From Planctomycetaceae bacterium (lineage in GTDB: Bacteria > Planctomycetota > Planctomycetia > Pirellulales > Pirellulaceae), in NCBI GenBank assembly GCA_002862205.1, contig PKCN01000072.1:1-64000 (forward strand): a stretch of DNA of 64,000 nucleotides, read 5' to 3'. Positions 7,154-46,915 of the stretch are shown in pieces. The notes beneath the pieces were generated by a model. That model was not told the origin of the DNA and made no database searches. It worked only from the letters and a program-made list of their open reading frames with translations. Numbering within the stretch: position 1 is the first letter of the stretch; each line of letters begins with the position of its first letter. A program made the translations under genes and the position numbers.

Positions 7154-7385
7154 TGGGCACCTGGGCCTAGTCCAATAGCGTCGAAAATGAGACGTTGTAG
7201 AATGGGTTGGCCGGTATGAAACTGCCGCTTTCCCTTCCTGACTTCCCACAGGTGTTTGATGGAAAATCACTCGTTGTCGACTTCCACATGAATTGACCTT
7301 TGAGGCCCAATAACCTCCATGCACGAGCCAACGGCGGATACTTTCTGCGTTGGATCATCAGCAATCGAATCCAGGCACGATACAG
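7154..7385. other. Intergenic region between trkH and nfeD-like gene
   Basis: A 27-codon frame at 7216-7299 (starting MKLPLSLPDF) has no ribosome-binding site and I do not consider it a gene. Otherwise nothing is seen beyond the expected promoter for the gene at 7386. Confidence 0.4.
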
Positions 7386-8885: not shown

Positions 8886-8906
8886 TTTCATCGGACAAAC
8901 GCCGTT

Positions 8907-30464: not shown

Positions 30465-32361
30465 TAAATGGAAATAGCGTTCGCCAACCGATCCGCGGCT
30501 TCGATTTCGAGTCCGATTCCTTTTCTTTCTCAACCGTTGACACTGTCACTCGGGCAGCATCGCTGTTACCGTCGTCATTTCGAAAATCCCGAGCGATTGC
30601 TTCCGTACTGGGTGCTATCTCATTCAATTGAGCTCGCAGCGTTTCAACCAAAGCCTGATCACCGGAATGCATTGCCAGCTCAATCAAACCCTGATAACCC
30701 TTACGAGTCGGCCTGATTTCTATGCTACGCTGCAACGACAAACGAGCTTGTTCAGGCAAACCCTGCCTCAACAATGTGATACCCAAAGCCAAGTGTCGTT
30801 CGTAATCAGCAGGGCAGATTTCTATCGCGGCCCGCTGCAACATCACGGCGATTGCGTTTCGGTAGGATGCATCCCCATCCATCCTCTCGGCCTCGGCGGC
30901 ACCAAGTAGCATCAATGCTTCGCTTGCCTCGGGAATTCCCTTAGCAGCTTTGACCAGTTCGCACCTCGCGAAGGTCAAGTAGTGAAAAGCTGCTTCATGC
31001 CCAGACAAACCTGCGAATGGTCGTGTTTTCAGTACAGCTGTTTTATGCTTCAAAATTGTCTGCTGAACCTGCTGTTCACCCATGGACTCTACCGTCACAC
31101 AGAAATCATGGGACTCACGCACTGCATCCACAGCAGCCTTGAATGAGTCAATACAAGAATGTGTCTGCTCTGCCACATCGAGGGCGGTCACACACAACCG
31201 GAATGCTTCCAGTGCGGAAGCCCTTGACTCAAGCGTGTTTCCATCTCTTGCGGAATGCCTTGCTTGCTGCAGGGTTAGTTGGGCCAACTCCCACAACTCT
31301 GCGGCCCTGCGAAGTGGATCAACTGGATCAACCGACGCTACCTCAGTGCTTTCAATCAACCCGTGAGGCTCGGCGACTGCCACCTTGGACTCTGGTGGAA
31401 CACCACGCGTGGGCTGCTCTGACTCTGGGAGCGACAACTTTGCAGTATTCGGTGGCAACACTGCAGTCGTCGGTGTTTGCAGGCTATCACCATTTTTCGC
31501 ATTACAGTCCTGATCGTCCGCAACCTGCAATTCGTTGAAGAACGACGCCACTGCATCCAACTCTGGCAAACCTTCAGTACTGCTCAATCCCGCTGGACTG
31601 GTAGCATCCTTTGATTCTGCTGACTTATGCTTCCAGCCATTCTGTGAAAGACGTGTTGAGTCGGGTGCATCCACATCGACCAAATCACAGACGGTATCTG
31701 TGGTACCCGTGTTTTCAACCTCAACCATGACCGGCGAAGCACCCGCCAAAGCCCGGGATGGTAATCCGTCTGCATCGATTGGATTTGCAACAACCACACG
31801 AGCTTGGCTCTCGACGTCAAAAATCCCGCGCTGGTATTCCTTCTCGATCGGTCGACGCGGTTGCAATCGTGGTACAGACGGAGCACGCTCGATTTGCAAC
31901 GTTTCAAAATCTGGCCGATGATGCAAGCGACCAACTTCTGGATTGCCTGCAGCAGTCGTTTGAGCCGTTTTGTGTGATCGTTGTCCGCTGCTGGGCACAT
32001 CAGGTCGATCAACTTTTTCAGAATCTAGCTCACTGCCTTTGGAAGCCCGAACGGGGTTACTGATTGTCGAGGCTCCACGTGCAGCAGCAGGCAGGGGTGT
32101 TCCAACTGCTCCACGATTCACTGCCCGCCGGATCAGAGGAGTCTGATCGACAGGTCCCTGCATCACGGGCGGCACGGAATGAGCCACTGGCGGAACAACA
32201 ACGGTATCCTGGACCACGGTCGAATCTTCGACCATGGAAGACAACCCCCAGCCGCTTTTCAGTAAATTGCCAAGTTGGGGCAGTTTCGCAGGCTCAGTAG
32301 CAACTGCTTGGGTACACCAAGCCAAAACTCCTGCAACAATGGCTTCTCTAGATCTACTCAT
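30457..32361 (-). CDS. Exported TPR-type protein with long unstructured region
   Basis: A 634-residue protein (ATG at 32361) with a signal peptide (about residues 1-22, ending TQAVA). The region from about 60 to 350 is low-complexity, rich in Pro, Ser, Thr, Val and Asp, and looks unstructured. From about residue 360 the sequence becomes helical: DPLRRAAELWELAQLTLQQARHS, EAFRLCVTALDVAEQT, and the last part (YRNAIAVMLQRAAIEICPADYERHLALGITLLRQGLPEQARLSLQRSIEI) is clearly tetratricopeptide-like. The end KPRIGWRTLFPFIR is basic and aromatic. Role unknown; such proteins often serve in envelope assembly. Other in-frame ATG codons at 32388 and 32421 would spoil the signal peptide. Confidence 0.62.
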   Translation of the reverse strand: MSRSREAIVAGVLAWCTQAVATEPAKLPQLGNLLKSGWGLSSMVEDSTVVQDTVVVPPVAHSVPPVMQGPVDQTPLIRRAVNRGAVGTPLPAAARGASTISNPVRASKGSELDSEKVDRPDVPSSGQRSHKTAQTTAAGNPEVGRLHHRPDFETLQIERAPSVPRLQPRRPIEKEYQRGIFDVESQARVVVANPIDADGLPSRALAGASPVMVEVENTGTTDTVCDLVDVDAPDSTRLSQNGWKHKSAESKDATSPAGLSSTEGLPELDAVASFFNELQVADDQDCNAKNGDSLQTPTTAVLPPNTAKLSLPESEQPTRGVPPESKVAVAEPHGLIESTEVASVDPVDPLRRAAELWELAQLTLQQARHSARDGNTLESRASALEAFRLCVTALDVAEQTHSCIDSFKAAVDAVRESHDFCVTVESMGEQQVQQTILKHKTAVLKTRPFAGLSGHEAAFHYLTFARCELVKAAKGIPEASEALMLLGAAEAERMDGDASYRNAIAVMLQRAAIEICPADYERHLALGITLLRQGLPEQARLSLQRSIEIRPTRKGYQGLIELAMHSGDQALVETLRAQLNEIAPSTEAIARDFRNDDGNSDAARVTVSTVEKEKESDSKSKPRIGWRTLFPFIR

Positions 32362-32758
32362 GCTCTCGCACTCATCCGTGAGATTCATCGTACTGAATTC
32401 GGGTCTCTCCACTGCATCCATGCGGCGGATCCCGTCCTTCTGTGAATCGACTGCGAGGCCGCCAAGGCACAGGCATAACCTCCATCAAGAAGTGAATGTT
32501 GTGGTCCGAGCCCGAATCAAAGCAATCACTGCAATGAAAGGTAGAACTGCTTTCAACGTAATAGTCGTTGCTATTTACCCAAGCAGATCATTGTGAAACC
32601 CCACCGATGAAAGTGACGATTGACGGCATTCAGCTCCTGCCAAAGCGCCCAGCGGGTTTGCCTTGACAGTGCCGAGAAACATGGGCAAGCAGACCTGAAG
32701 GCGAATGCGGCTTATCCACCGGTGAATGACCGTTGAGGGAACAAGTCACGTCTCAGCC
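32362..32758. other. Intergenic region between TPR protein and ThuA-DUF1080 genes; nothing recognised
   Basis: The segment includes the promoter of the TPR protein gene and the end of the ThuA-DUF1080 gene. A plus-strand frame overlapping it lacks family features. No strong hairpin with T-run seen by eye. Confidence 0.4.
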
Positions 32759-34279
32759 TCATTTCAGTTCACGCACTCGTATATCACGCCAACGAACTTC
32801 AAACGGGCCTTTATCCTTTTTGATGCCATGAACCTGTAGACCAATGAATCCCTTCTTGCTTGATTCAGGATCACGGATATCAGCGATTTTTTTCCCGTTC
32901 ACCCATGTTTGAATGCGGTCACCATTGGCACGTACAACGAATCGGTTCCATTTACCATTCTGGTAGGCATCCTTGACTGGCTGCGGCTTTGTAATCCAGC
33001 CTCGTCCGGTTCCTTCGCTGTAGATATAACCACTTTCCCCAGGTGCATTCTCGATCTCAATCTGCGGCCCATGCACGCGTCCATTATTAAAATCTGCTTT
33101 ACTGAGTGATCGGATCTGAACGCCACTATTCAATCCAGAATCATCATTGACCTCGAACGTCAGTTCAAAGTTTTCGTAATCCCGAATAGTGCACATGAAT
33201 GAGTTGGGACTGCCTTGCGCTGTTTTGCCGACAATCATTCCATTGTCGACTCGGTAGGTTGCTGTCCCATTTTTCTGCGACCACCCGTTGAGGTCTTTTC
33301 CATTGAACAAAGTCACCCAGCCTTTGGTTTTCACGTCGGGAATTGCCGCAAATTCGTCCGGTTTGACTTCGGCAGGATCACGAGTTGCGGGCTTATCGCT
33401 GGTCAAAACCTGCCCATCGACCGCTGGCTGCTTCACGTTCCCCGTGGCAGCCCACTCAGTGCCCCGTTGCAAAGTCACCTGAAACGCGATTCCTTTCATG
33501 GCCTTATCATCGTGACCGAGAGTCGTGTGAAAAACTCGTCCTTCGCCAAACTGAATCGTCATCAAGAGTGGTTCGTGTTCGCCGGTCCCCCCTGTTGCTG
33601 GTGCACTGAATCCTGTTGCAAGCACATGCATATTTTCAGCTGGCCCGCGCAACTTGCCGTACAGTTCGTCTGCTGTCTGCATGAAAGTGGCAGGTAAATC
33701 TGCGGTGATGGGGTGTTCTGAATCTCGAACAACCACCAGAAATGGGACACGTTTCCCATGAGCACCGCCCCGACCTGGGGTAAGGTCACGGGTGAAACGT
33801 TTTTGATCATCTTTCCATCGGACGTAAGGTCCACTCTTCTCTGAACGGCCTCCCCAACCACCAAGCCCGATCATTCTGTTGTAGGCACCCCATCGAGGAA
33901 ACGAGTTGTCTGCGGCGTGGACACTCACAAAACCACCGCCACCTGCCACAAATGTTTCGAATGCTTTTTGCGTGGGGCCGCTCCACGATTGCCCGTTGTA
34001 GTTCGAAACGACGACATCATACTTCGAGAAGTCGGGACCAAACGAATCCATGCTTTCGCCCGGCCCGGGTGATGTGTTCACCTCAACCTCAAATTTCCCA
34101 CTCCCCTCCAGTATCTGTTGAATCAGCGGAGTCGTCGCTTTCCAGTTGTGATTATTCTGCCCATCAATCAATAACACCGAAATCTTCTCATCTTGCTGAG
34201 CCCGCAATTGGACTACCTGCAATGGAGAAAGGGTCAGAAGCAAAAAAAACACGTTTCGAACGGATGCAACCATGGTCAT
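32759..34279 (-). CDS. Exported ThuA-like plus 3-keto-disaccharide hydrolase (DUF1080) fusion protein
   Basis: A 506-residue exported protein. After an N-terminal hydrophobic signal (about residues 5-25) comes a ThuA-like domain (ISVLLIDGQNNHNWKATTPLI, VVSNYNGQSW, GGGGFVSVHAADNSF, and TTLGHDD), a trehalose-utilisation-type Rossmann-like fold. From about residue 320 follows a DUF1080 jelly roll (GWVTLFNGKDLNGW, NGMIVG, GLNSGVQIRS, ENAPGESGYIY, FIGLQVHG), now named 3-keto-disaccharide hydrolase. The pair is very common in planctomycetes and acts on oxidised sugars outside the cytoplasm. Start chosen at 34279, since it gives a signal peptide; 34405 would add a 42-residue leader. Confidence 0.86.
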   Translation of the reverse strand: MTMVASVRNVFFLLLTLSPLQVVQLRAQQDEKISVLLIDGQNNHNWKATTPLIQQILEGSGKFEVEVNTSPGPGESMDSFGPDFSKYDVVVSNYNGQSWSGPTQKAFETFVAGGGGFVSVHAADNSFPRWGAYNRMIGLGGWGGRSEKSGPYVRWKDDQKRFTRDLTPGRGGAHGKRVPFLVVVRDSEHPITADLPATFMQTADELYGKLRGPAENMHVLATGFSAPATGGTGEHEPLLMTIQFGEGRVFHTTLGHDDKAMKGIAFQVTLQRGTEWAATGNVKQPAVDGQVLTSDKPATRDPAEVKPDEFAAIPDVKTKGWVTLFNGKDLNGWSQKNGTATYRVDNGMIVGKTAQGSPNSFMCTIRDYENFELTFEVNDDSGLNSGVQIRSLSKADFNNGRVHGPQIEIENAPGESGYIYSEGTGRGWITKPQPVKDAYQNGKWNRFVVRANGDRIQTWVNGKKIADIRDPESSKKGFIGLQVHGIKKDKGPFEVRWRDIRVRELK

Positions 34280-34511
34280 GTTTGCTGCGGCAAGTGCTTG
34301 GATGAACGGCGACGCGAGTCCAAAACATCGAAATAGACTCGTCAAAAACGTGATTCTAGCATTTCCATTGGTGTGTGCTGCCCTGTTAACTCGCTCAGTC
34401 ATCACGATTCATCAAGATTGATGAGTGACGCTCATTCAGCAATTCTCAGGTCCAGCGGTTCTAAAAGCTCCGTCAGCCTTTTAACATGGTGTTTCCCAAA
34501 GGAGCAAAAGA

Positions 34512-35516
34512 ATGTCAGAGTTTTTACGCGGATCATTCCCCGCAACTCGGATGCGGCGAGTACGACGTCACGACTGGTCAAGGCGACTTGTCACCGAAAC
34601 GACACTCAGCACGAATGACCTGATCTGGCCGCTTTTCGTATTCGACGGCAAAGGGCGGCAAGCAGTAGCCAGCCTGCCGGGTGTTGACCGCCTTGGCGAG
34701 GACGAAATCTGCCGTGAAGCAATCCGGGCGTGCAAGCTCGGACTACCGGCAATTGCAATCTTTCCCGCCACCGATCCCTCCTTGAAAACCGAAGATGCAG
34801 CTGAAGCCGTCAACCCGGATAATCTTGTCTGTCGGACAGTTCGGCGAGTCAAACAGGAAATTGGAGACAGTATCGGAATCATTTGTGACGTTGCACTTGA
34901 TCCATACAGCAGCCATGGGCAGGACGGCATTGTGCGTAATGGGGATGTCGCTAATGACGAGACACTGGCCATACTCTGCCAACAATCATTAGTGCAGGCC
35001 GAGGCTGGATGTGACATCATTGCCCCCAGCGACATGATGGATGGTCGAGTCGCCGCGATCCGGTCCGCATTGGACGAACGCGACTTTTCGCATGTTCAAA
35101 TCATGTCCTATGCGGCCAAATATGCCAGCTCTTTTTATGGCCCGTTCCGTGACGCAGTAGGTTCATCCAGCAGTCTTGGTGGTGCGAGCAAAAACACATA
35201 TCAGCAAGCACCATCTCAGACCGATGAAGCACTGCACGAAGTCGCGCTTGATTTGCAGGAAGGTGCAGACAGCGTGATGGTCAAACCTGGCATGCCTTAT
35301 CTGGATATTGTGCAACGTGTAAAACAGACGTTCGCGGTTCCAACTTTTGCCTATCAGGTGAGTGGTGAATACGCGATGTTGTCTGCAGCGGCCGAAAATG
35401 GATGGCTTGATCGCCGTCAAACTGTTCTTGAAAGTCTGCTCGCATTCAAACGTGCTGGTGCAGATGGCATTCTCACGTACTTTGCTGCTGACGTTGCGCA
35501 ATGGCTCAGTGAGTGA
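34512..35516 (+). CDS. hemB: Porphobilinogen synthase (delta-aminolevulinic acid dehydratase), Mg-type
   Basis: A 334-residue enzyme with both Schiff-base lysines: SYAAKYASSFYGPFRDA and VMVKPGMPYLD. The block SLGGASKNTYQ and FAYQVSGEYAML are also diagnostic. It condenses two ALA to porphobilinogen, the first common step toward heme, siroheme and cobalamin. The metal loop reads DVALDPYSSHGQDG, with Asp where zinc-type enzymes have Cys, so the enzyme depends on Mg rather than structural Zn. The start MSEFLRGSFPATRMRR keeps the normal N-terminus; AAAGGAGC lies upstream. The next gene begins nine bases downstream. Confidence 0.96.
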   Translation: MSEFLRGSFPATRMRRVRRHDWSRRLVTETTLSTNDLIWPLFVFDGKGRQAVASLPGVDRLGEDEICREAIRACKLGLPAIAIFPATDPSLKTEDAAEAVNPDNLVCRTVRRVKQEIGDSIGIICDVALDPYSSHGQDGIVRNGDVANDETLAILCQQSLVQAEAGCDIIAPSDMMDGRVAAIRSALDERDFSHVQIMSYAAKYASSFYGPFRDAVGSSSSLGGASKNTYQQAPSQTDEALHEVALDLQEGADSVMVKPGMPYLDIVQRVKQTFAVPTFAYQVSGEYAMLSAAAENGWLDRRQTVLESLLAFKRAGADGILTYFAADVAQWLSE

Positions 35517-35525
35517 AAATCCACG

Positions 35526-36239
35526 ATGAACGAGACAAACGAATCCAGTACCGAATCTCTAGAGAATGGTTGCCCTGAAGCACTGGCGATTGAGGCATCA
35601 GGCCGATTTCAGTGGCATTGGGAGGAGGTAAACATTGCGGGTAAAATTCGCAAGTTGGCAGTTGCATCGGATCCAGAGGGCATGCTGATTGATGCCTGTG
35701 AACGACAGGATGCCGGGGAAAAGGGCGTCATTGATCCCTTCTGGGCAACGACATGGCGTGCCGCCTCTGGTCTTGATCGTTACCTGAACCACCTCTCGCT
35801 GGAAAACCTTCGAGTCTTGGAACTTGGCTGCGGAACTGGACATGCGGGACTTGCCGCAGCGTGTCGCGGAGCACAGGTTGTACTGACCGATGGCGTGATC
35901 GATCCATTGCTTCTGGTGAAAATGAGCACATGGGAACTCCGAGAACACTGCGAAGTGCGGCAACTACGATTTGGAATCGATCACATTGAGGGAGGTGGAT
36001 TCCCGCTTATCCTTGGCAGTGACATCACCTATCTCAGAATACTTTGGCCAGAGTTGGACCGTTGCCTTCGAGAACACTTGTCTGATGGTGGCCAAGTCTT
36101 ACTGAGCGACCCCTATCGGATCATTGCCAATGAATTCCGGGACTGGATCCAAGAGCGTGGATGGTCCTATTGTGAACACAAAGTGGACTTGGAAGACGAT
36201 CCTGCTCACCCCATTCGGGTAATGCAATTAACGGCATAG
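35526..36239 (+). CDS. Class I SAM-dependent methyltransferase (METTL21/Nnt1-like)
   Basis: A 237-residue protein with SAM motif I VLELGCGTGHAGLAAA at about residues 98-113, the acidic residue of motif II in VVLTDG, and IILGSDITYLRILWPELD-like strand (LILGSDITY) typical of the METTL21/protein-lysine methyltransferase branch. FWATTWRAASGLDRYL before motif I is the usual 'W-x-x-G-x-x-L' block of that branch. The target is unknown. It lies nine bases after hemB, so it is probably in that operon. Confidence 0.78.
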   Translation: MNETNESSTESLENGCPEALAIEASGRFQWHWEEVNIAGKIRKLAVASDPEGMLIDACERQDAGEKGVIDPFWATTWRAASGLDRYLNHLSLENLRVLELGCGTGHAGLAAACRGAQVVLTDGVIDPLLLVKMSTWELREHCEVRQLRFGIDHIEGGGFPLILGSDITYLRILWPELDRCLREHLSDGGQVLLSDPYRIIANEFRDWIQERGWSYCEHKVDLEDDPAHPIRVMQLTA

Positions 36240-36269
36240 TGACTCTGCAGATGCCAAAGTTCGCTGGCG

Positions 36270-36722
36270 TCAAACAGTTACTGGTGGTGGATCAGACATG
36301 AATGCCTTTGCGTCTGGATCGTGTTGCAACAACAGAATTGCTCCGACTTCATAACAATTGCTGTTGATCCGCCGTGTGCGAGCCACCCTCACCTGCACCC
36401 AAAAAGTTGGCAGCACAATTCGCACCTGCTCTTCCGGATAGATTTCGCAGGGAGAAAGAAAGCCTGTACCCTGACGAGAGAAATCGCGTGTGTAGATACC
36501 AACGGGTTCTTTTGCGCGAGGCCTGATTGGGATGGACTTCTCAAACCACATGACGCCGCAAGTGCGGATTTTCAGCCTTTGATTATGTCGTTGATCATCG
36601 GCGAAGAAGGCAGGTCGCCCTGTGTCTTCAAAGTAGTCAGACCACTCGTCTGGAATTTCGATCTTCCAGCTCAATGAATGGAGCAACTGCTCTAACTTTG
36701 TTTGATAATCGACTGCCAGCAT
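36270..36722 (-). CDS. PilZ-domain protein, candidate cyclic-di-GMP receptor
   Basis: A 150-residue protein. RHNQRLKIRTCG and, 30 residues later, YTRDFSRQGTGFLSP match the PilZ pattern (RxxxR then D-x-S-x-x-G), which binds cyclic-di-GMP. It has no transmembrane segment. Its start codon lies 31 bases inside the 3' end of the HD-GYP gene upstream, so the two are translated from one message. The pair (a phosphodiesterase and a receptor for the same messenger) supports the call. Confidence 0.78.
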   Translation of the reverse strand: MLAVDYQTKLEQLLHSLSWKIEIPDEWSDYFEDTGRPAFFADDQRHNQRLKIRTCGVMWFEKSIPIRPRAKEPVGIYTRDFSRQGTGFLSPCEIYPEEQVRIVLPTFWVQVRVARTRRINSNCYEVGAILLLQHDPDAKAFMSDPPPVTV

Positions 36723-37639
36723 CGAAATAACTCCGGATCGAATGCTTTACCAATCTCACGTTCCATAATCTGCAAAGCCTTCTTTCGAGGCATGGCTTTC
36801 CGATAGGGTCGATTGCTTGTCAAAGCCTCATACACATCAACCACCGAACAGATTTTCGCCCAAGGATGAATTTCATCTTCAACACAACCAACAGGGTAAC
36901 CTTTGCCATCAAGTCGCTCATGATGCTGATAGGTCATCATGAGTTGCCCCTCAATAAGGTCTTCCCGATGAGCCAACTTTTTGAAGCCCAAAGTTGGATG
37001 CATACGAATTTCGCGAAACTCCAACTCCGTCAACTTCCCAGGTTTCCGCAATAACTCATCACGGATTTCCAACTTTCCCAAATCGTGAAGCAGACCCCCA
37101 GCGGTAATGTCCTCAACGACTTCGCTTGAATGACCCAATTCAGTCGCAAGCATTCCACAATAAAATGCAACATTAGCTGAATGAGTGAAGGTTGCATAAT
37201 CGTGATGCAACACCTTCAACATGTCTTTAACTGCGAACTGATCATTCGTCAAAATATCCGCAGTGAGCTTACCGAGTTGGCTTGCCGCATCCACTGTCTG
37301 GTCGACATCTTCCTCGGTAAACGACTCTTGCAGAATCTGCCGAACGACCTCTGTCACAGCCTCCGTACGCACCGCCAGCGGTATCTCGTCCTGATCAGTC
37401 GCAGTCGCAATCTCACGCAGGTAATCCTTGTATAAGGTCTGCGACTCTCTTGAAATGAACAGATGCTCAATGCCACGTCCCCGCAAACGCTCCAAATCAT
37501 CCAGCGTCAACGGATACTCTCCACCTCGGTAGAGTACGTAGTCTTCGCTCTCGACCTCGGCTTGATACAAGTCGAGCCCAAGATGAGAACTGGGCATCAA
37601 GGTAGCGATGCTGATTGGAATGAAGTCAAAGCAGTGCAT
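36692..37639 (-). CDS. HD-GYP domain phosphodiesterase (cyclic-di-GMP)
   Basis: A 315-residue protein. The N-terminal region (FIPISIATLMPSSHLGLDLYQAE, residues 6-28, and YPLTLDDLERLRGRGIEHLFIS) is the small domain common in planctomycete HD-GYP proteins. The catalytic part has the HD in GLLHDLGKLE, the HHERLDGKGYP motif, and VVDVYEALTSNRPYRKAM. All metal-binding residues of an active HD-GYP enzyme seem present, so it would hydrolyse cyclic-di-GMP. No membrane segment. Overlaps the PilZ gene by 31 bases. Confidence 0.9.
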   Translation of the reverse strand: MHCFDFIPISIATLMPSSHLGLDLYQAEVESEDYVLYRGGEYPLTLDDLERLRGRGIEHLFISRESQTLYKDYLREIATATDQDEIPLAVRTEAVTEVVRQILQESFTEEDVDQTVDAASQLGKLTADILTNDQFAVKDMLKVLHHDYATFTHSANVAFYCGMLATELGHSSEVVEDITAGGLLHDLGKLEIRDELLRKPGKLTELEFREIRMHPTLGFKKLAHREDLIEGQLMMTYQHHERLDGKGYPVGCVEDEIHPWAKICSVVDVYEALTSNRPYRKAMPRKKALQIMEREIGKAFDPELFRCWQSIIKQS

Positions 37640-37872
37640 TGAGCTGGCACGACTGTTTGAGAAACATAAGGGTACGTAGAGAGTCTAGAACACCACATTG
37701 GGGGGGCGATAAAGTTACTTCAACCAAATCGCTCCGTTCTGGTTGATCTCGATGGCATAACCGTCAAAATCGCTTTACACGTTCAAAAAACAAGAAAATC
37801 AAATCGTGTAGGAAATGGACGGCTAGATAAGTCAACCGTGCACTCTCATCCAAAAGTCAGCCAAGAAACGAT

Positions 37873-40800
37873 CTACTCAGTTTTAAATTCTTCAGGCAGC
37901 TCATATTTGCCTGCTGCCGAGTTGCGTGTCGTGATAAGAATCTCCTTCACTCCTGGTGTTGCGGCATCCTCGGCAACCACCCAGATCAATGACTGCTTCT
38001 CATCGTTGGCTCCCGTTGCTGTCTTATCAGGATTGGCACGTCTGACCAACTCAGTGAGCACCTTTCGCAGCGCGACGTTTGCCTGTTTGAAATCCCGGAC
38101 TTGTTGATTCTGCGTAATCCCCATCAACTGCAAATCACCGCCAATGATTCGGATCTCTGGCATTTTGGAGCCACTGGGCAAATCTCGTTCAAAGGCGGTC
38201 ACGATATTGTCGACCGCAAATTCCAATGATTCCTGCTCGAAAGTAACCGACATTTTCCGATCCAACAAATCATCAACAGACAAGACCTTAGCCGCTGTCG
38301 GGGCTCCGGTCGCAACGGCTACACCCTTGGGAGTATTGAGAGCAAAGGCTGTCGCCAAAACAACTTGGGGAACTGCTTGTGCAGGTAGGTAAACATTGGC
38401 AACGGCCATCTCATCGGAGACACCGAAACGCACGCGTTGAGCGACAAAACTGACCATTGACCTCAAGCGATTGGCAAGCAAACGCCACGAAGCATCAGGT
38501 ACCGAATTAATAATAAAATCGTCAGCCCATTCAGTCCAAGCGTTAATCTTTTCCTGAAGCATTCGAACAATCGCAGCAGCACTTGTTCCACCACTTGGTG
38601 CCATACGGGTTTCGACAAACATTTGCTCAGCACCAAAATCCACCGTCACCACCAAAGCTGAAACATCAGGCTGTAGTGCTGATTTCAAAGGATCTACAAA
38701 TCCTGGCAACGATTTTGACAACACCTCACGACCATCTGCGAACAGAAAATTGGGACTGGCGAACAGAACGACAATATCAGCTTCCCCACTCGTAGCATCC
38801 CAAAGCGACTGGGAATTTCTTGGAAGAAGAATCCCTCCTCCCTCGACTTCCGCAACTTCACTTATCTTTGTTACTGAGCCGATCGCAAAACGACTTACGG
38901 GTTCCTCGCCTTTGCCCTCAAAGTAAAAGGCATCTGATTCAAGTGCGTCACCTGCGTAGATAGTGACGCCATCGGCAGTACGTGAAGCCGCTACCCCCCA
39001 TTTCTCAATCAGATCTTTTGCTGGAACGGCAGTTGTCAGTTGGATTGCCAACGACACTTCTGGCCACCCCTCTTTACCAGCATGCAATGCCAGGCCACAC
39101 GTTTGGATCGCTTCCATGGGCAGTTTTGTGCGTTCTGCGATACCCGAAAGCAGAGCCTCTAACTCAGGTGCAAATGCATCGATCAATTGACCACCAATGC
39201 CACTTTCCAAAATCGATGCCACGCGCAAAGATGCCACAATCGCTGGACCGGGTGGTAAATAATCCAGCAAAGGTTTTTCCGTATCTGCTGGATAGGGCGG
39301 CACGTAGAGTAATCGATCGTCATCGATCAGTTGGTATCCCGTGGTTTCACTACCCTTCTCCGGTGCCTTTCTCGGCGGTGGACTCTCGTCGTTCTTTTTC
39401 CCATTGGTAACTCTTGGAATGTTAGCAGGAACAGGCGGACGCCGGAGATCTTTATCAGCGGTCTCTTCTTCTGGACTTCTCGGAACCAGCAATCCAATGA
39501 TCAACAACAGGATGGCAACACACATCGCGCCAAGCACCAACGGAGCTTTTGACTGCTTTTTGCGCCGAGCGCGGAGTCCTGGGGCAGTCGCTTCACTCGC
39601 AACCGGAGGTGGACTTGGTGGCTCTGCCGAACGCTGCTCGACGCCCCCAGGCTTGCCAGGTTCGACAGTCTCCTTCGATGCAGTTTCCTCGGACAGGGAG
39701 GCAACCTGCTGCACAGAACCACTTGAATCACCCGCTGTCGGATCACTGGAATCAGATTTCCCTACATTCTGTTTTTCCTTTACCGGAGTCTCAGCTACCC
39801 GAGACTGGACAGCATCGGTAACGCTGGCCGATTTGATTTTCGTTTCCTGTGCCACTTCCACAACAGGAATTTCTTTGATGACAGGAGGTTCAGATTTTGT
39901 AGTCGTGGGGTCAGTCGCACCAGCCGATTGAATTTTATTGCTGGTTGCACTCTCTGTTGTCCCTGCACTGCCGGAGCCCTCCTGCACTGGCACCTCGGCC
40001 GAGGCCAATGGCAAAATCGTCGTCAACGCATGAGACAACTGCTCCACCGCGGCAAATCGTGATGCTGGAGTCTTTGCCATTGCGAATGCCAAGACTCGGT
40101 ACAGCGGATCACCGCTTTCACCCTTGTTGACTGCTTCAGCCAATTCAGGAGGTGTCACCGAAGCATGAGCTTTGATGAGCTGCGCGGTCGATTTACCTTC
40201 GACCGGAAATCTTCCACTAGCCAATCGAAACAGCAAACATCCCAAAGCGTAAATATCAGTCGCCGCACTGCATTCCTGATTTGCGTGACTGAACTCAGGT
40301 GCAGCATACAGCCCGACCTCTTCACTGCCATCAAACCAACCAGATTGGCTTTCATCAATTCCTGCAGGAGGGCCGGACGGGTCTCTCAAAAGCATGGCCT
40401 TGCCATCTTGACCAAGCCAAACCTGCTCTGCCCTGACCGCTCCATGCACCAATGGCCTCTCATGCATGGCTGTCAATGCACTCGCCAACGAAATACCGAG
40501 CTCACAGACCTGACGATGACTGAAGCTGCCCCCACCCGATAGAAAAGACGAGAGAGCTTGACCCTCGGGCAGTTCGGAGAAAATAAGTGTCCAAGCTTGT
40601 TGCGTCTCGTCATCAAAGGCTTGCAGTTCGACAGCTTCAACTTCCTGATGAGCCTGCAACCACTGGTCACGACCACCAATGAACTGATCAACGGCAACCC
40701 GAAACAATACACCAACCCGGCCATCGTCGACCCGAGAAACAGGAATCCAGCGACGCACAGGCTCTGGACCGACCTGCGCCCGAACCACGAAGTTTCCCGA

Positions 40801-41016
40801 CCGGATTTCCCGCGGCGGATCCGCCAAAAGTGCCTCCGCCTGGAAATCAGTCAGAATCCCAGAATTCACGAGAAAGCTGGCCAACTCGCTGCTGTCATTT
40901 GGCGGGGTCCCCGCATTCGCATCGGCATAGTCACTAGCGATCTGCTTGCAACCCGATGCATCAGCAACACCCGACTTGACCAGCCCTTTCCAAAATTCGC
41001 CCAACGCGATCGACAT
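37873..41016 (-). CDS. Membrane-anchored pseudokinase with secretin/STN-like C-terminal domain
   Basis: A 1047-residue protein. Residues 1-70 are the short helical domain often ahead of planctomycete kinases (FLVNSGILTDFQAEALL). A kinase-fold domain follows (about 75-330): LGISLASALTAMHERPLVHGAVRAEQVWL, YAAPEFSH, DIYALGCLLFRLASG. The catalytic loop HRDxKxxN is HGAVRAEQV and DFG is RDP, and the VAIK Lys and glycine loop are missing, so it is a pseudokinase. A Thr/Ser/Lys/Pro-rich linker leads to a membrane segment at about 488-508 (LVLGAMCVAILLLIIGLLVP). The outer 530 residues contain an unknown domain and, near the end, a region like short N-terminal secretin (STN) domains (KMSVTFEQESLEFAVDNIV...GITQNQQVRDF...LRKVLTELV). 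Function unknown; a signal-linked scaffold is one option. Confidence 0.75.
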   Translation of the reverse strand: MSIALGEFWKGLVKSGVADASGCKQIASDYADANAGTPPNDSSELASFLVNSGILTDFQAEALLADPPREIRSGNFVVRAQVGPEPVRRWIPVSRVDDGRVGVLFRVAVDQFIGGRDQWLQAHQEVEAVELQAFDDETQQAWTLIFSELPEGQALSSFLSGGGSFSHRQVCELGISLASALTAMHERPLVHGAVRAEQVWLGQDGKAMLLRDPSGPPAGIDESQSGWFDGSEEVGLYAAPEFSHANQECSAATDIYALGCLLFRLASGRFPVEGKSTAQLIKAHASVTPPELAEAVNKGESGDPLYRVLAFAMAKTPASRFAAVEQLSHALTTILPLASAEVPVQEGSGSAGTTESATSNKIQSAGATDPTTTKSEPPVIKEIPVVEVAQETKIKSASVTDAVQSRVAETPVKEKQNVGKSDSSDPTAGDSSGSVQQVASLSEETASKETVEPGKPGGVEQRSAEPPSPPPVASEATAPGLRARRKKQSKAPLVLGAMCVAILLLIIGLLVPRSPEEETADKDLRRPPVPANIPRVTNGKKNDESPPPRKAPEKGSETTGYQLIDDDRLLYVPPYPADTEKPLLDYLPPGPAIVASLRVASILESGIGGQLIDAFAPELEALLSGIAERTKLPMEAIQTCGLALHAGKEGWPEVSLAIQLTTAVPAKDLIEKWGVAASRTADGVTIYAGDALESDAFYFEGKGEEPVSRFAIGSVTKISEVAEVEGGGILLPRNSQSLWDATSGEADIVVLFASPNFLFADGREVLSKSLPGFVDPLKSALQPDVSALVVTVDFGAEQMFVETRMAPSGGTSAAAIVRMLQEKINAWTEWADDFIINSVPDASWRLLANRLRSMVSFVAQRVRFGVSDEMAVANVYLPAQAVPQVVLATAFALNTPKGVAVATGAPTAAKVLSVDDLLDRKMSVTFEQESLEFAVDNIVTAFERDLPSGSKMPEIRIIGGDLQLMGITQNQQVRDFKQANVALRKVLTELVRRANPDKTATGANDEKQSLIWVVAEDAATPGVKEILITTRNSAAGKYELPEEFKTE

Positions 41017-41465
41017 ACAAATTTTTCAATCAAACGAATATTTCTACGTGTCCTATCCCAGTTTCTATTCTACGACATGATCTGGCTTTCGCCGACCTCA
41101 TCCCAAAAGCAGTCCGAACTTCATCGCTCTATCGTCGAATAATGGGTTTTTTGCAGCCACACGGCTCACAACGGCAGGAAAAGACCATCTTTGAGGACTG
41201 AGCTTGCGGCAGTAAACTAGAAGTGACACGAAAGTACGTGCATCAATGAACTGCTTTTGACGCTGTATAGCAGTGCGTTGTGGGAACATCACCACACAAT
41301 GAGTCGAGTGCGCAAGCATGTTGTGCGGGGCGAGCGACAAAGTTTTCCAGTCACTGACACAGCAATTGCGACCAGTTGTGTTCATTGTCAATCAGCACAA
41401 TCGCTCTATCTCTCCCATCCATACCCGATCAGATCCTCGCGTCATAACCGATACCAGCAACAGCA
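41017..41465. other. Intergenic region between the pseudokinase and glgA genes (divergent)
   Basis: Divergent promoters for both genes are expected. No frame here has recognisable motifs; a minus-strand frame at 41098-41391 was considered and not accepted. No clear hairpin or repeat. Confidence 0.4.
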
Positions 41466-42974
41466 GTGAACATCGTCTACCTCACCACCGAAGTTGTTCC
41501 ATTCGCGAAAACGGGTGGTCTGGCAGACGTTTGCGGCACTCTTCCTTCGCGAGTTGCAGCATTGGGGCATCGCACAGCGATCATCATGCCGGCTTTCCGC
41601 AGTGTCTACCAAAGCCACGCGGGAGTTGAACCGACAGATATCAGTTTCGCGATCCCAATGGGTCCTCGGAAACTCGTCGGCTGCCGGCTTCTCAGAGGAC
41701 GACTTCCCAGTGCTCATGATGTACCGGTCTGGTTCATTGACCAACCACAATATTTTGATCGCGAGTCGCTCTACGGGACAGCCACAGGGGATTACCCTGA
41801 CAATGCTGAAAGGTTCTCGTTCTTTTGCCGTGCCGCCATTCAGGCAATCCAGAGAATTGGCTGGAACGTTGACATCGTTCATTGCAATGACTGGCAAACC
41901 GGCCCGATACCATCGCTGCTTGCAGCGGACAATGATCTTTCTCCTGCGCTGAAGAATCATGCGACGTTCATGACGATTCACAACTTGGCGTACCAAGGGA
42001 ACTTTCCCAAATCAGAGTTTGGGTGGCTGGGACTTGATTGGACACATTTCAATCACGATGAATTCGAGTTTTTTGACCACGTTAATTTCCTGAAAGCCGG
42101 AATTGCGGCAGCAGATACCATCACCACTGTCAGCCCCAGATACTCGGAAGAGATTCGAACAGCAAAGCATGGTTGTGGCCTGGAAGCAGTGCTCGAAAAC
42201 GTTGCCGACCGTGTCTCAGGAATTACCAATGGCATTGATCAGAGCATCTGGAATCCAAAGACCGATACAAAATTGGCTGCCAACTACGATGCAAAATCCT
42301 GGCAGCATGGAAAACTGGCCAACAAACGTGCGTTGCAACAACAATTCGCGCTTGAGCAAAGTGATGACGTACCAATGATTGGTCTGGTCGGACGCTTGGC
42401 TGAACAAAAAGGCTGGGATCTCATTCTTCCGGTCTTACGATGGCATCTTCGTGAGAATCGTCCCACACAGTGGATTGTGCTGGGCAGCGGAGACGCACAA
42501 TATGAGCGTGAACTTCGTGAATTGAAAGAAGAACACCCGAATCGCTTCGCGTTGCATATTGGATTCAGTGACATGCTCGCACACCGCATCGAAGCTGGAT
42601 CTGATATTTTCTTGATGCCAAGTCACTACGAACCGTGTGGGCTGAACCAACTCTACAGCATTCGATACGGAACAGTTCCCATCGTGACACCCACCGGTGG
42701 CTTGGCTGACACCGTGGTTGACTGCAGTGATCAGTCACTTGCCAGTACAACGGCAACAGGATTTCATCTTCATACCATTTCACCCCAAGGACTCGATGAT
42801 GCAATCGGCAGGGCATTGCATCTCCGCTACCATCAACCCCAGCAGTGGGCACAATTGATTGAAACGGGGATGGCACAAGATTGGTCTTGGAAGAAAAGTG
42901 CAATCGAATATGAATCGCTCTATGCGAAAACCTTAGCCCTTAAGTCTGCTGCAAAGCGAACTGAATCACACTAG
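41466..42974 (+). CDS. glgA: Glycogen synthase (ADP-glucose type, GT5)
   Basis: A 502-residue GT5 enzyme. It begins MNIVYLTTEVVPFAKTGGLADV; the KTGGL Lys (residue 15) binds ADP-glucose. IVHCNDWQTG, TIHNLAYQG, ITNGIDQSIWNP, GLVGRLAEQKGWDL and LMPSHYEPCGLNQLYSIRYGTVPIVTPTGGL follow in the usual order. It elongates alpha-1,4-glucan at the start of glycogen storage. The start is GTG at 41466; no ATG gives the full N-terminal motif. It is followed by galT and a GH57 enzyme, so the locus handles alpha-glucan and sugar-phosphate metabolism; glgB and glgC are not here. Confidence 0.93.
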   Translation: MNIVYLTTEVVPFAKTGGLADVCGTLPSRVAALGHRTAIIMPAFRSVYQSHAGVEPTDISFAIPMGPRKLVGCRLLRGRLPSAHDVPVWFIDQPQYFDRESLYGTATGDYPDNAERFSFFCRAAIQAIQRIGWNVDIVHCNDWQTGPIPSLLAADNDLSPALKNHATFMTIHNLAYQGNFPKSEFGWLGLDWTHFNHDEFEFFDHVNFLKAGIAAADTITTVSPRYSEEIRTAKHGCGLEAVLENVADRVSGITNGIDQSIWNPKTDTKLAANYDAKSWQHGKLANKRALQQQFALEQSDDVPMIGLVGRLAEQKGWDLILPVLRWHLRENRPTQWIVLGSGDAQYERELRELKEEHPNRFALHIGFSDMLAHRIEAGSDIFLMPSHYEPCGLNQLYSIRYGTVPIVTPTGGLADTVVDCSDQSLASTTATGFHLHTISPQGLDDAIGRALHLRYHQPQQWAQLIETGMAQDWSWKKSAIEYESLYAKTLALKSAAKRTESH

Positions 42975-43023
42975 TGGGAAAAGCGATGCCAATTCCTTGT
43001 TCTCGCTGCGATGACTCAAGCAA

Positions 43024-44316
43024 ATGGGTTACGATTTTGTCAAAGAATCCAGTGCATCACGATTGAGCGACACGGCTGTTAGCTCAGCATCTGCGGAGTG
43101 CCCCATGATCGAGGCAACCAAGCCCAACGTACAAACCAATTCAGCCAGCCCTTCATCGCAGCACGCTGGAGAATCGCGATTTGACCCTGTGACTGGTAAC
43201 TGGACGCTATTTGCTCCCCACCGCTCGGAACGTCCTGACGAATTTGTGGAGTCCCGTGAACGCATTCGCAATGAGGTCGAATGCCCATTTTGCCCGGGAA
43301 ACGAAACCACAACCCCACCCGCTGTCTGGATTGGTCAGTCAGACAGTGACATACCAATCACTGATAAGCTCCAACAAGCCAGTACATTGTTGCCCCTAGA
43401 GAATGCATCACAAGAAGCTGCATCACAAGTAGCTGCATCACAAGAAGCCTGGGCTGTTCGTGTTGTACCCAACAAATTCCCAGCAGTTACCAGCGTCAAG
43501 GAATCAAGCAGCAAGTCGTGCACTGTTCCGGAAAGAACAACTGCGAAATCAGCATCCCAGTCAGGTCTTTTCCAGCGTCGTCCAATCGCGGGTGGTCACG
43601 AAGTCATCATTGAATCTCGCAATCATGTTCAGTCGATCACTGATCTGGATGTCGCCGAGGCGGCCCTTGTGTTCAAGGCATACAGAGATCGGCTGCTGTA
43701 TTGGCGCGATGTACCTGGCATTGCTTACATCAGCATCTTCAAAAATGTCGGTAGCAAAGCTGGTGCATCCTTGCGGCACACACACAGCCAACTGATCGCG
43801 ACTGATCGAATGCCTCCCATGGTGTCTGCCGCAGCGGAGCGAATGTCAAATTACCGCCTGACACAAGGTAGCTGTTTACACTGTGATCTTGTTCGAGCCG
43901 AATTGAAGGCAAAAGAACGAATCATTTGGCGAGATGACGACCTCGTCGCTTTTTGCCCATTTTCGAGTCATCTCCCCTTTTTGGTTCGCATCACAACGAT
44001 GGAACACCAGTCCTGCTATGCGGATCTCAGTGACTCCATCATCGAATCAGTTTCACGCCTGGTCAGACGAGTTGTTTCATGGATAGAACAACTTCATCCC
44101 GGAACTGCCTACAACTTCTGCCTCCACACCCGACCACCGGCCTGCAACGACCCGTCTGATGCCTATCACTGGGGGATCGAGATTTTCCCTCGGATAACTC
44201 AAATTGCAGGATTTGAGTTCAGTAGTCACTGCATGATCAATCCAATTCTGCCAGAAGATGCGGCGACCAAACTACGGGGCTGTGCCTTGGCAGAAGATCC
44301 GCGACTGATCCTCTGA
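43024..44316 (+). CDS. galT: Galactose-1-phosphate uridylyltransferase-like protein (GalT)
   Basis: A 430-residue HIT-superfamily nucleotidyltransferase. The start of the core is FDPVTGNWTLFAPHRSERPDEF (about residue 52), with the zinc Cys pair in CPFCPGNE, VRVVPNKFPAV, GGHEVIIESRNH and the active-site HTHSQ in SLRHTHSQLIA. The last domain has FCLHTRPP. It exchanges UMP between UDP-glucose and galactose-1-phosphate, or a related nucleotide sugar. An insertion rich in Ala, Ser and Gln (three 15-bp repeats) lies at about residues 124-140. The ATG at 43105, preceded by GGAG, is an alternative start that would remove 27 residues outside the domain. Downstream neighbour: GH57 enzyme. Confidence 0.88.
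   Translation: MGYDFVKESSASRLSDTAVSSASAECPMIEATKPNVQTNSASPSSQHAGESRFDPVTGNWTLFAPHRSERPDEFVESRERIRNEVECPFCPGNETTTPPAVWIGQSDSDIPITDKLQQASTLLPLENASQEAASQVAASQEAWAVRVVPNKFPAVTSVKESSSKSCTVPERTTAKSASQSGLFQRRPIAGGHEVIIESRNHVQSITDLDVAEAALVFKAYRDRLLYWRDVPGIAYISIFKNVGSKAGASLRHTHSQLIATDRMPPMVSAAAERMSNYRLTQGSCLHCDLVRAELKAKERIIWRDDDLVAFCPFSSHLPFLVRITTMEHQSCYADLSDSIIESVSRLVRRVVSWIEQLHPGTAYNFCLHTRPPACNDPSDAYHWGIEIFPRITQIAGFEFSSHCMINPILPEDAATKLRGCALAEDPRLIL
43405..43449. repeat. 15-bp coding repeat, three near-identical copies in galT
   Basis: Units of gcatcacaagaagct (the second with gta, the third ending gcc) encode ASQEA, ASQVA, ASQEA, giving an Ala/Ser/Gln-rich insertion ahead of the VRVVPNKFPAV block. 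The insertion sits in a surface position of the GalT fold as far as motif spacing tells. Confidence 0.8.
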
Positions 44317-44687
44317 TCGACAAGACAAGCCCCTGATTGAGACACACTGGGATGAGAAACGCGGGGATGAGACACACTGGGAGATGGATTCCTGGAATCA
44401 GCAAGGCTTAAAATAGAGGTCACCCATTCGGGTCTCAAAACTTGCCTTCACACGCTGACAGACCGTACAAATCAAATGAACTTTGATGGCTGTCGAATCC
44501 GATAGGTAAGTTACGGAAATACGCGCAACTGCGCAATTGAAACGGATCATGCCAATCACGTTCTGTTTTAGCGACCAGGTTTGTGAGGTGAGCGGACAAT
44601 ACCCACAAAATCGCCATTCGGCAATGAACCAGATACGCCTACAATCAGCGGTTGTCGAATAACCGTCCCAAACTTACACCAAAAAAA
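44317..44687. other. Intergenic region between galT and the GH57 gene; 15-bp direct repeat
   Basis: The sequence TGAGACACACTGGGA occurs twice, at 44338-44352 and 44368-44382, 30 bases apart. No gene or terminator hairpin is apparent. The A-tract immediately before the ATG at 44688 takes the place of a ribosome-binding site. Confidence 0.55.
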
Positions 44688-46853
44688 ATGACGTTGCACG
44701 CATCTCTCTGCCTTGTTCTGCATAACCACCAACCGATCGGCAATTTCGACGGGGTCTTTGAACAAGCCTATCAGGACAGCTATTTGCCATTCCTGAACGT
44801 ATTCGAACCCTACGAGCCATTACGGATATCGCTGCACACTTCTGGCCCCCTGATGATGTGGCTCGCCGAGCGGCATCCCGAGTATCTGGATCGCATCCGA
44901 ATGCTGGTGGACGCCGGTCGAATTGAGATCATTGGTGGACCCCAATATGAGCCAATTCTGACCATGCTACCATCGCGTGACAGAATTGGTCAGATTCAGG
45001 CCTACAGTGCATGGCTTGAACGGAATTTGGGTGCGGCTCCTTCGGGAATGTGGATGCCAGAGCGGGTTTGGGAATCATCCTTGGCCAAGGACATTGTAGA
45101 TTCCGGCATCAGCTACACAGTTCTGGATGACTTTCATTTCCGGGCCGCCGGTCTCGAAGACGACGAACTGTCCAGCTACTATCTGACAGAAGACGATGGC
45201 CGTGTCCTGAAAATTTTTCCGGGTTCAGAGCATCTGCGTTACACCATTCCTTTTCAGCCAGCCCAAAAGACAATTGATTACTGCCGTCAGGTTGCGGAAA
45301 AATCTCCGGGTGCAATCCTCACTTTTGGTGATGATGGAGAAAAATTCGGTACTTGGCCAGACACCAAATCACATGTCTATGACGATGGCTGGCTGCGTTC
45401 ATTCTTTGACTCGCTTGTGGAAAACGCAGCGTGGCTCCACACCACGACACTCGGACAAGCCATTGAAAAAGTTGCTCCGGCAGGAAAAGTCTATCTACCA
45501 GACTGCAGTTATCGGGAGATGACCGAGTGGGCATTGCCAGTCAAGGCTCAAACAAAATTCGAAAATGTCATTCATGCGGTGGAAGACCATCAGAGATGGA
45601 AAGATCTCAAGTCGTTTGTGCGTGGTGGGTATTGGCGCAACTTCAAGACCAAGTATGACGAAACCAACGAGATGTATGCTCGCATGATGCACGTCAGCAA
45701 ACGGCTGGCTGAAGCAGAAGAAGCAGGTGCTGATGCGGGTGAGCTGTCTGTGATTAGAGATCATCTGTATCGCGGGCAATGCAATTGTCCTTACTGGCAT
45801 GGTGCGTTTGGCGGCATCTACCTCCCCCACTTGCGAAATGCGATTTTCAATCACCTGATCGATGCAGATACTCGACTCGATAAGGTCATGGACGCTGAGC
45901 TTACGGCTGTTCAAGCCACTGCCGAAGATTACAACTTTGACGGGTTACAAGAAGTCCGTTTGAGTAACAATCAACTCTGTGTGTGGCTAGCTCCAGCACA
46001 TGGTGGTCGAATGTATGAACTTGATATCCGAACCATCGGACACAATCTGCTGGCTACCCTGCAGCGTCGACCAGAAAACTATCACCAGAAAGTACTCAAC
46101 GGTCCGAGCAAGGATGGTGAAGATGTCGCCAGCATCCATGATCGTGTGGTGTTCAAACAGGAAAATCTTGATCAGCGTCTGCACTACGACAAGTTTCCCA
46201 GAAAAAGTTTGATGGATCATTTTTATGATGATCAGGTGACTCTGCAGACAGTTGCTAACGGCCAAGCCATGGAACGAGGCGACTTTGTTGATCTTCCTTA
46301 CGAAACCAAACTTCGACGAGGCTCTGATCGGGTGCAAGTGCAGATGCGACGTGATGGAAACGCTTGGGGTATTCCCATCACCATCACCAAAGCTGTCACG
46401 ATGGTCGCAGGCAGTAATCGTGTATTGCTTACCTACCTGCTTGAGAATCTACCCCCTGAAAAACCACTTCACTTTGCCATTGAAATGAACTTTGCGGGGA
46501 TGCCAGCGGGTGCCGATGATCGATACTTCAGTGACATGGAAGGCAATAGCCTCGGCCAACTCGGAACCCAACTCGATTTGTCAGACGTCCAAGGGCTCAG
46601 TCTCTCCGACCGATGGCTGGGAATGGACGTTTCCCTGGAAATTGACCGACCTAGCGGCATTTGGGCTTTTCCAGTGGAAACGGTAAGCCAAAGTGAAGCT
46701 GGTTTTGAACTGGTACATCAGAGTGTGTGCGTCCAACCTCATTGGCTCGTCACTGGAGATGCCGACGGACGTTGGTCCGTCGAGATCGAAATGACAACTG
46801 CCTGCGAAGAGAAAACAGAAATACTTTCAGAAGAACAAGTCATCCGCTTGTAA
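44688..46853 (+). CDS. GH57 family 4-alpha-glucanotransferase/alpha-amylase-like protein
   Basis: A 721-residue GH57 enzyme. Conserved regions: LVLHNHQPIGNF (residues 9-20), GGPQYEPIL, GMWMPERVWES with the putative nucleophile Glu125, and ILTFGDDGEKFGTWP with the acid/base Asp. After the catalytic barrel (about 1-380) come the DUF1925/DUF1926-type beta domains typical of 4-alpha-glucanotransferases. It would rearrange or hydrolyse alpha-1,4-glucans in the cytoplasm; no signal peptide is present. The ATG at 44688 starts the protein directly at the first domain; a TTG at 44652 would add 12 residues. It fits the preceding glgA and galT genes. Confidence 0.88.
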   Translation: MTLHASLCLVLHNHQPIGNFDGVFEQAYQDSYLPFLNVFEPYEPLRISLHTSGPLMMWLAERHPEYLDRIRMLVDAGRIEIIGGPQYEPILTMLPSRDRIGQIQAYSAWLERNLGAAPSGMWMPERVWESSLAKDIVDSGISYTVLDDFHFRAAGLEDDELSSYYLTEDDGRVLKIFPGSEHLRYTIPFQPAQKTIDYCRQVAEKSPGAILTFGDDGEKFGTWPDTKSHVYDDGWLRSFFDSLVENAAWLHTTTLGQAIEKVAPAGKVYLPDCSYREMTEWALPVKAQTKFENVIHAVEDHQRWKDLKSFVRGGYWRNFKTKYDETNEMYARMMHVSKRLAEAEEAGADAGELSVIRDHLYRGQCNCPYWHGAFGGIYLPHLRNAIFNHLIDADTRLDKVMDAELTAVQATAEDYNFDGLQEVRLSNNQLCVWLAPAHGGRMYELDIRTIGHNLLATLQRRPENYHQKVLNGPSKDGEDVASIHDRVVFKQENLDQRLHYDKFPRKSLMDHFYDDQVTLQTVANGQAMERGDFVDLPYETKLRRGSDRVQVQMRRDGNAWGIPITITKAVTMVAGSNRVLLTYLLENLPPEKPLHFAIEMNFAGMPAGADDRYFSDMEGNSLGQLGTQLDLSDVQGLSLSDRWLGMDVSLEIDRPSGIWAFPVETVSQSEAGFELVHQSVCVQPHWLVTGDADGRWSVEIEMTTACEEKTEILSEEQVIRL

Positions 46854-46915
46854 CCCGCCTGGTATCCAGTATTCATGCGGTTGCAATTGAACTCTTGTCA
46901 TGACAGCAACTCCGA

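Follow-up and report, generated by a model that had tools for sequence, protein, structure and literature searches.

What role can a membrane-anchored protein kinase play when its catalytic residues are missing and its outer end resembles the STN domain of secretins and TonB receptors? This question is raised by a gene in the stretch of DNA analyzed here (hereafter the window), positions 1 to 64,000 of contig PKCN01000072.1 from Planctomycetaceae bacterium (assembly GCA_002862205.1). An initial annotation of the gene had described its product as a membrane pseudokinase with an STN-like outer end and had given no strand; the open reading frame (ORF) lies on the minus strand. On balance, comparisons with its relatives suggest that the protein is probably a non-catalytic connector across the inner membrane, which would dock through STN contacts, likely with a zinc-ribbon partner protein.

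The layout of the product, a large single-span membrane protein predicted to carry a kinase-fold head inside and an STN-like end outside, is well supported. Inspection of the sequence identified a hydrophobic stretch, APLVLGAMCVAILLLIIGLLV, at residues 491-511 that separates the head from the outer part, and the 536 residues C-terminal of it close in the STN-like domain, in agreement with the one membrane segment and approximately 530 outside residues described initially. Basic residues flanking a span mark its cytosolic side (the positive-inside rule), and the segment RARRKKQSK immediately before the span thus predicts that the kinase part is cytosolic and that the 536 residues lie outside. 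Conservation peaks toward the C terminus, where mean column identity is 47% (alignment A3, 25 sequences) versus 38% for the whole outer region. The remainder of the conserved outer region corresponds to nothing in Pfam that recurs in the family: among 78 members scanned, no Pfam family appeared in more than four at E up to 1.

Judged by its sequence, the head is a pseudokinase, with a kinase fold from which the catalytic residues are missing. The window protein passes the gathering score of the Pfam Pkinase model (PF00069; 38.3 bits versus 31.7, E 1.3e-9, residues 139-329), and residues 1-345 alone reach 41.4 bits. Since the Pfam match begins at profile position 69, the N-lobe of the window protein is recognized only via relatives, one of which (L116) matches profile positions 1-252; in the alignment of heads (A7), 63 of 67 match Pkinase at E 0.01. 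When the window protein was searched against solved structures with phmmer, the top matches were the Ser/Thr kinase 7naa (E 2.9e-9) and PknB chains. The motif assignments made initially were borne out by the sequence and the family alignment: HGAVRAEQV stands in place of HRDxKxxN and RDP in place of DFG, YAAPEF and DIYALGCLLF are kept (DIYALGC at residues 254-260), and the VAIK position reads VLFR, without the Lys; a glycine loop was not seen by eye. By the family alignment, VAIK Lys, HRD Asp, and DFG Asp are all missing from the window protein. That alignment fixes the DFG column such that RDP has its Asp in the Phe column, and even with that Asp taken as the DFG Asp, the protein would be without the VAIK Lys and the HRD Asp.

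Orthologs share this loss. We scored motifs in 85 distinct kinase-bearing relatives, obtained from 117 rows by removing 17 exact duplicates (leaving 100 distinct sequences) and dropping 15 without enough head; the 85 include four badly aligned heads (L122, L147, L148, and L150) and the head of L111, which lies in a frame of its own. The DFG Asp occurs in none of them, the VAIK Lys in two, and the HRD Asp in 10; two of the three catalytic residues are found together in no relative, and all three are absent in 73. Residues that keep the fold are retained, including the APE Glu (79/85), the Asp at 254 (77/85), and the Arg at 320 (80/85). The head is very probably incapable of phosphorylation.

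Whether the head might instead perform other chemistry is a separate matter. SelO, for example, uses a kinase fold to catalyze AMPylation. SidJ uses one to catalyze glutamylation, according to the text available from a 2025 review of bacterial pseudokinases (PMC12599244). A comparable activity would be in keeping with a fold that is under selection and with charged residues that recur near the lost sites, namely Arg at the VAIK position (33 of 85), Arg at the position of the DFG Asp (36), an adjacent Asp (42), and Arg at HRDxK (32). These residues are found mostly within the window's clade and are not family-wide, the canonical catalytic residues are as scarce as just described, and homologues manage with a different head or none (see below), so that we consider such an activity very unlikely. 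The initial verdict, "not an enzyme," is well supported by the residue counts and the retained fold while stopping short of proof, given the Arg at the VAIK position and the RD at the DFG position that are common chiefly in the window's clade.

The head (residues 1-330) is under purifying selection, with ratios of nonsynonymous to synonymous substitution rates (dN/dS) of 0.06-0.23 in 14 pairs that overlap, some sequences entering two or three pairs and the window protein three; the ratio is rough where synonymous divergence is high (dS above 1 in five of the 14 pairs, and 0.86 and 0.99 in two more). The ratio for the head is lower than that for the linker in 13 of the 14 pairs, and compared with the outer domain it is lower in seven and higher in seven. 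These values make it unlikely that the kinase domain is a remnant in decay that persists only because the outer domain attached to it is important. Such decay would fit the absence of the head from one clade of 10 and the lower mean column identity of heads (28%, A7) relative to the outer part (36%, A6); with a head present in 85 of the 100 distinct sequences and selection acting on it, we hold this explanation to be highly improbable.

How widely the protein occurs was assessed by several searches. The first covered 40 relatives and gave a match in each, many of the lower matches being ordinary kinases, and 36 fetched loci gave 36 matching ORFs, among them L053, which has no kinase part, and L059, which was dropped as an apparently active kinase. 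A scan of named genomes, of which the best 80 of 105 loci were kept, placed relatives within that set in Rhodopirellula, Rubripirellula, Stieleria, Roseimaritima, Blastopirellula, Lacipirellula, Aeoliella, and planctomycete bins, and from these named relatives we judge the window's order to be Pirellulales. At E 1e-10, a profile of the outer domain matched in 166 of 297 sampled genomes of the class. In the window's order, it matched in 78 of 87, usually once per genome, and the nine misses comprise eight genomes of family f17 together with genome G035; the other matches are four weak ones in f21 and, by subtraction, 84 in family f19. The open frame is shorter than 700 residues in 20 of the 78 order genomes, being headless, split, or cut by a contig end, and 12 of these are all 12 genomes of f7. 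In two records (L111 6001-9226 and L157 5980-8993, the latter from Blastopirellula marina DSM 3645), the gene is divided between a pair of overlapping frames, through either a frame error or a real break. A second copy in genome G393 (L166 6694-8616, minus strand) has no kinase head and carries two STN-like domains in a row after the outer domain.

L059 had been considered as the orthologue in genome G036 and was rejected as an apparently active kinase (HRDVKPSN); the orthologue there is L159 8689-11943. The L059 protein (6356-9046, minus strand) combines its HRDVKPSN kinase with two stretches that match STN profiles of the partner protein introduced next, and not A3, so an inner kinase joined to an outer STN domain is by itself no mark of a dead kinase.

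Outside two clades, the pseudokinase gene commonly has a partner gene downstream, in the same orientation and no more than a few hundred bases away. Its product has a CxxC...CPxC zinc ribbon at the N terminus, then a single span and two STN domains (STN-1 and STN-2), each followed by a further stretch that appears conserved by eye. In the remaining group of named loci the partner is adjacent in 23 of the 25 loci (of 29) with at least 600 bases downstream. The three groups used for this count were defined with the adjacency results already known; both clades correspond to clades of the tree, one with 33 rows (support 100) and the other with 12 (support 90). No partner is present at locus L077, for which the wrong region had been fetched. 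The genus of the window has a diverged partner encoded elsewhere in the genome, with full-length open frames in four genomes and, in the host genome, a fragment at the end of a contig (G000:C216:23-1207) that is 78% identical over residues 293-687; these five match the STN-1 profile with domain E values of 2.5e-10 to 2.3e-6. In the second clade, several loci have a DAHP-synthase-like gene downstream, assigned by likeness to one that was scanned with Pfam. Two partners (L051 10621-14166 and L061 3453-7175, both plus strand) are enlarged by DUF1559 and, by eye, by a segment resembling the outer domain's first half.

The partner provided the means of evaluating the STN-like end. In profile-profile comparison with hhalign, A3 matched partner STN-2 with a score of 61.9 (probability 97.2, 93 columns) and partner STN-1 with a score of 52.0 (probability 96.1), whereas 60 column shuffles reached at most 16.4 and 12.9, respectively, and control chunks of the kinase and outer domain scored no more than 14.7. 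Of six partner proteins scanned, three have domains that themselves exceed the Pfam STN cut-off, and the profile of the partner domains matched the STN domains of E. coli FecA, HofQ, GspD, and FecR with a score of 38.5 (maximum of 60 shuffles, 13.7). When the STN and outer profiles were each searched against the sequences of solved structures, chance matches alone were returned. The STN likeness of the C terminus is well supported, short of proof. It links the window family to PF07660 by profile, through the STN domains of the partners; relative to that family, the proteins described here have a GITxNQ block and an insert, both seen by eye in alignments, and hold the domain at the C terminus.

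Homologues outside the order indicate that the head can be exchanged. In family f19, from another order of the class, all seven homologues read carry an N-terminal zinc ribbon and no kinase on a homologous span, outer domain, and STN domain. An eighth locus fetched from f19, L161, encodes a different protein, by eye a hydrolase with an STN-like stretch, and was dropped, so that seven of the eight loci count. A partner-like neighbor was detected by profile at L160, L164, and L206, weakly at L163, and by eye at L219, and none was found beside L162 and L218; a Pfam scan of three of these f19 partners identified DUF1559 in each. In six f21 proteins, homology covers the first half of the outer domain; five of the six have, by eye, a CxxC...CxxC pair on the N-terminal side, and a zinc-ribbon head was also found in the four f21 proteins placed in the tree. 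One f21 protein (L225 289-1917, plus strand, genome G533) has a stretch corresponding to the first half of the outer domain and, by eye, a DUF1559-like part, with no zinc ribbon.

We constructed a quick tree of 83 rows, rooted at its midpoint, with support from the Shimodaira-Hasegawa-like approximate likelihood ratio test (SH-aLRT). Six sequences closely related to the window protein (L079-L082, L086, and L102) and five cut, split, or unsuitable sequences (L110, L126, L130, L152, and L157) were left out; L127 falls in no group, and L111 is labeled headless while its kinase part lies in an overlapping frame. Headless forms, including those of Lacipirellula and Aeoliella, form one clade of 10 (SH-aLRT 97), and the zinc-headed rows other than L221 fall outside the kinase-bearing rows. 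The simplest history consistent with this topology would be a single swap of the zinc ribbon for the pseudokinase followed by a single loss. That the head is exchangeable for a zinc ribbon suggests to us that a docking module is likelier than an enzyme.

The same exchange bears on a regulatory role. Some dead kinases regulate active kinases by pairing, and the outer domain of a receptor-type regulator would sense a ligand or the state of the envelope while its pseudokinase switches an active kinase in this way. The layout is like that of a receptor kinase, the downstream neighbors include HD-GYP and PilZ-like genes, and Pkinase matches 54 times in the host genome at E 1e-5 (a single gene accounting for two of the matches, and the window pseudokinase scoring lowest), the HRD motif being found by pattern in 28 of the 30 best loci and the other two fitting none of the patterns used. 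Homologues with a zinc ribbon or no head would, however, be odd for a kinase-specific regulator, and we regard this role as rather doubtful.

The order of parts in the window family, a single span, a juxtamembrane domain, and a C-terminal STN domain, as read from sequence and profiles, is that of FecR and PupR. The periplasmic part of PupR binds the STN-type signaling domain of its transducer 1:1, and its authors call the C-terminal STN domain a new arrangement (available text of PMC7186176). By analogy, an STN protein of the outer membrane or periplasm could bind the C-terminal STN domain here, with the signal passed to the cytosol by proteolysis or a change of shape. FecR and PupR have an anti-sigma head, whereas that of the window family is a pseudokinase or zinc ribbon on a larger outer domain of no Pfam family. 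A Pfam scan of the window protein at E up to 10 returned two kinase models only, with no anti-sigma or YukC-type match, and the ten neighboring ORFs scanned with Pfam (30457 to 47695) include no sigma factor and no TonB receptor or transducer gene. Moreover, usually one match per genome in most of the order would suit a housekeeping part more than an uptake switch. A relay of this kind is unlikely.

We therefore return to the connector, which we propose on the basis of the PupR layout together with partner recruitment by two known membrane pseudokinases. EssB/YukC, of type VIIb secretion in Firmicutes, crosses the membrane once, has a kinase fold in which all three motifs are degraded, and is a structural component of an envelope machine, and mycobacterial MviN (ActPs3) is a membrane-protein pseudokinase that recruits a partner instead of phosphorylating; both have worked-out roles and act by partner recruitment, according to the same review text (PMC12599244). 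The single span and degraded kinase are shared between EssB/YukC and the window protein, and only the latter has an STN-like outer end; the pseudokinase of MviN is likewise on a membrane protein, and the window protein differs in having one span and an STN-like domain. In the proposed connector, the cytosolic head would be a non-phosphorylating kinase fold kept as a protein-docking module that binds something in the cytosol, the single span would connect it to the outer domain and C-terminal STN domain, and the latter would dock to a second STN domain, most likely one belonging to the partner (zinc ribbon-span-STN-STN). The transmembrane signal scaffold suggested by the initial annotation would be compatible with this layout. 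The zinc ribbon would probably be the older head, which the pseudokinase replaced in an ancestor within Pirellulales, and one clade would later have dropped its head. More tentatively, and with less confidence than in the connector itself, the pseudokinase protein and its zinc-ribbon partner could be inner-membrane subunits of a planctomycete-specific envelope machine, in which the dead kinase replaced a zinc ribbon once, early in the order. That this machine might be secretin- or pseudopilus-like is suggested by the STN domains and by DUF1559 in the partner of another order. The order of head changes, the docking role of the head, the STN-STN contact, and the larger envelope complex are thus what we infer from these patterns. 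A published essential-gene study of Planctopirus limnophila describes an operon for type II secretion in which six genes, Plim_0406 to Plim_0401, are restricted to planctomycetes (available text of PMC10632474); a tie between these and the pseudokinase or partner genes could not be made.

Several observations weigh against the connector and its assumed partner. In the Rhodopirellula clade, which includes the window, no named locus has the partner adjacent (0/39), and the same holds for the second clade (0/12). In the five genus partners, including the fragment in the host genome, the match to STN-2 is weak, with best domain E values of 1.6e-5 to 0.67, and Pfam STN was not found in the two genus partners scanned. 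A partner-like protein is also present at E 1e-20 in all nine order genomes without a detectable outer domain; both STN domains are clear in three of the four f17 proteins read and weaker in the fourth, and in G035 the partner lies beside a glutamate dehydrogenase (by eye), a neighbor known from other loci, with the pseudokinase gene missing between them. As for the STN domain of the window protein itself, Pfam STN (PF07660) gives no match; at E up to 1 the model matches four of 78 members (best 7.3e-4), and A3 compared directly with the four E. coli STN domains is borderline (score 21.5, probability 8.6, maximum of 60 shuffles 20.6). The STN-like C terminus of the initial annotation hence stands through profile matches via the partners and not through a Pfam match of its own. 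Finally, the pseudokinase is dispensable in the headless clade, and this clade sits among kinase-bearing rows at a fork (SH-aLRT 88) shared with the long zinc-headed branch L221.

Membrane pseudokinases that act as scaffolds are known, and published bacterial pseudokinase families include ActPs1-3, GLW, CP1, DYD, and DLHK. The present architecture and exchange of heads were not found in the literature searched, which had most subscription journals outside it. The main text of the 2025 review (PMC12599244) contains no word starting with "planctomyc," titles and beginnings of abstracts on planctomycete pseudokinases yielded no such protein, and a search for a planctomycete STN domain found nothing. 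The partner gene, zinc-ribbon head, and headless clade were not visible from the window alone. A dead kinase retained in most sampled lineages of one order, with zinc-ribbon and headless homologues, amounts to a natural experiment; the head variants make the purpose of the dead kinase testable in culturable planctomycetes and offer an entry to an uncharacterized two-protein envelope module.

Table. Positions of the pseudokinase gene, its parts, and two neighboring genes in the window
Feature	Position	Strand	Basis and remarks
Whole coding sequence	37873..41016	minus	1047 residues, ATG start, stop codon included; ORF list and relatives
N-terminal leader, residues 1-70	40807..41016	minus	Conserved positions in alignments A1 and A5
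Pseudokinase domain, residues 71-335	40012..40806	minus	Pfam Pkinase above cut-off; dN/dS
Degenerate catalytic loop HGAVRAEQVW (residues 191-200), replacing HRDxKxxN	40417..40446	minus	Sequence and family alignment
RDP (residues 211-213), replacing DFG	40378..40386	minus	Family alignment puts Asp at Phe position
APE motif (residues 239-241), retained	40294..40302	minus	Glu in 79/85 relatives
Variable linker, residues 336-486	39559..40011	minus	dN/dS 0.09-0.68 (residues 345-485)
Membrane span, residues 491-511, with RARRKKQSK N-terminal of it	39484..39546	minus	Read from sequence
Conserved outer domain, residues 562-905, no Pfam family	38302..39333	minus	Alignment A6; homologues in another order
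C-terminal STN-like domain, residues 906-1035, best-conserved part	37912..38301	minus	A3 profile comparisons
HD-GYP gene (HHERLDGKGYP), downstream, neighbor only	36692..37639	minus	Pfam HD_5 5.3e-28; similar ORFs in 12/36 other loci
PilZ-like gene overlapping HD-GYP gene, neighbor only	36270..36722	minus	Pfam PilZ 20.9 bits, below cut-off 22.5; similar ORFs in 10/36 other loci

The leader of the window protein presumably resembles those of active planctomycete kinases. Recurrence of the HD-GYP and PilZ-like genes hints at a link to cyclic-di-GMP in the window's clade. The window also contains a second kinase gene (60556-63366, plus strand, 936 residues), which is apparently intact, with HRDIKPANL, VAIKV, and DFG.

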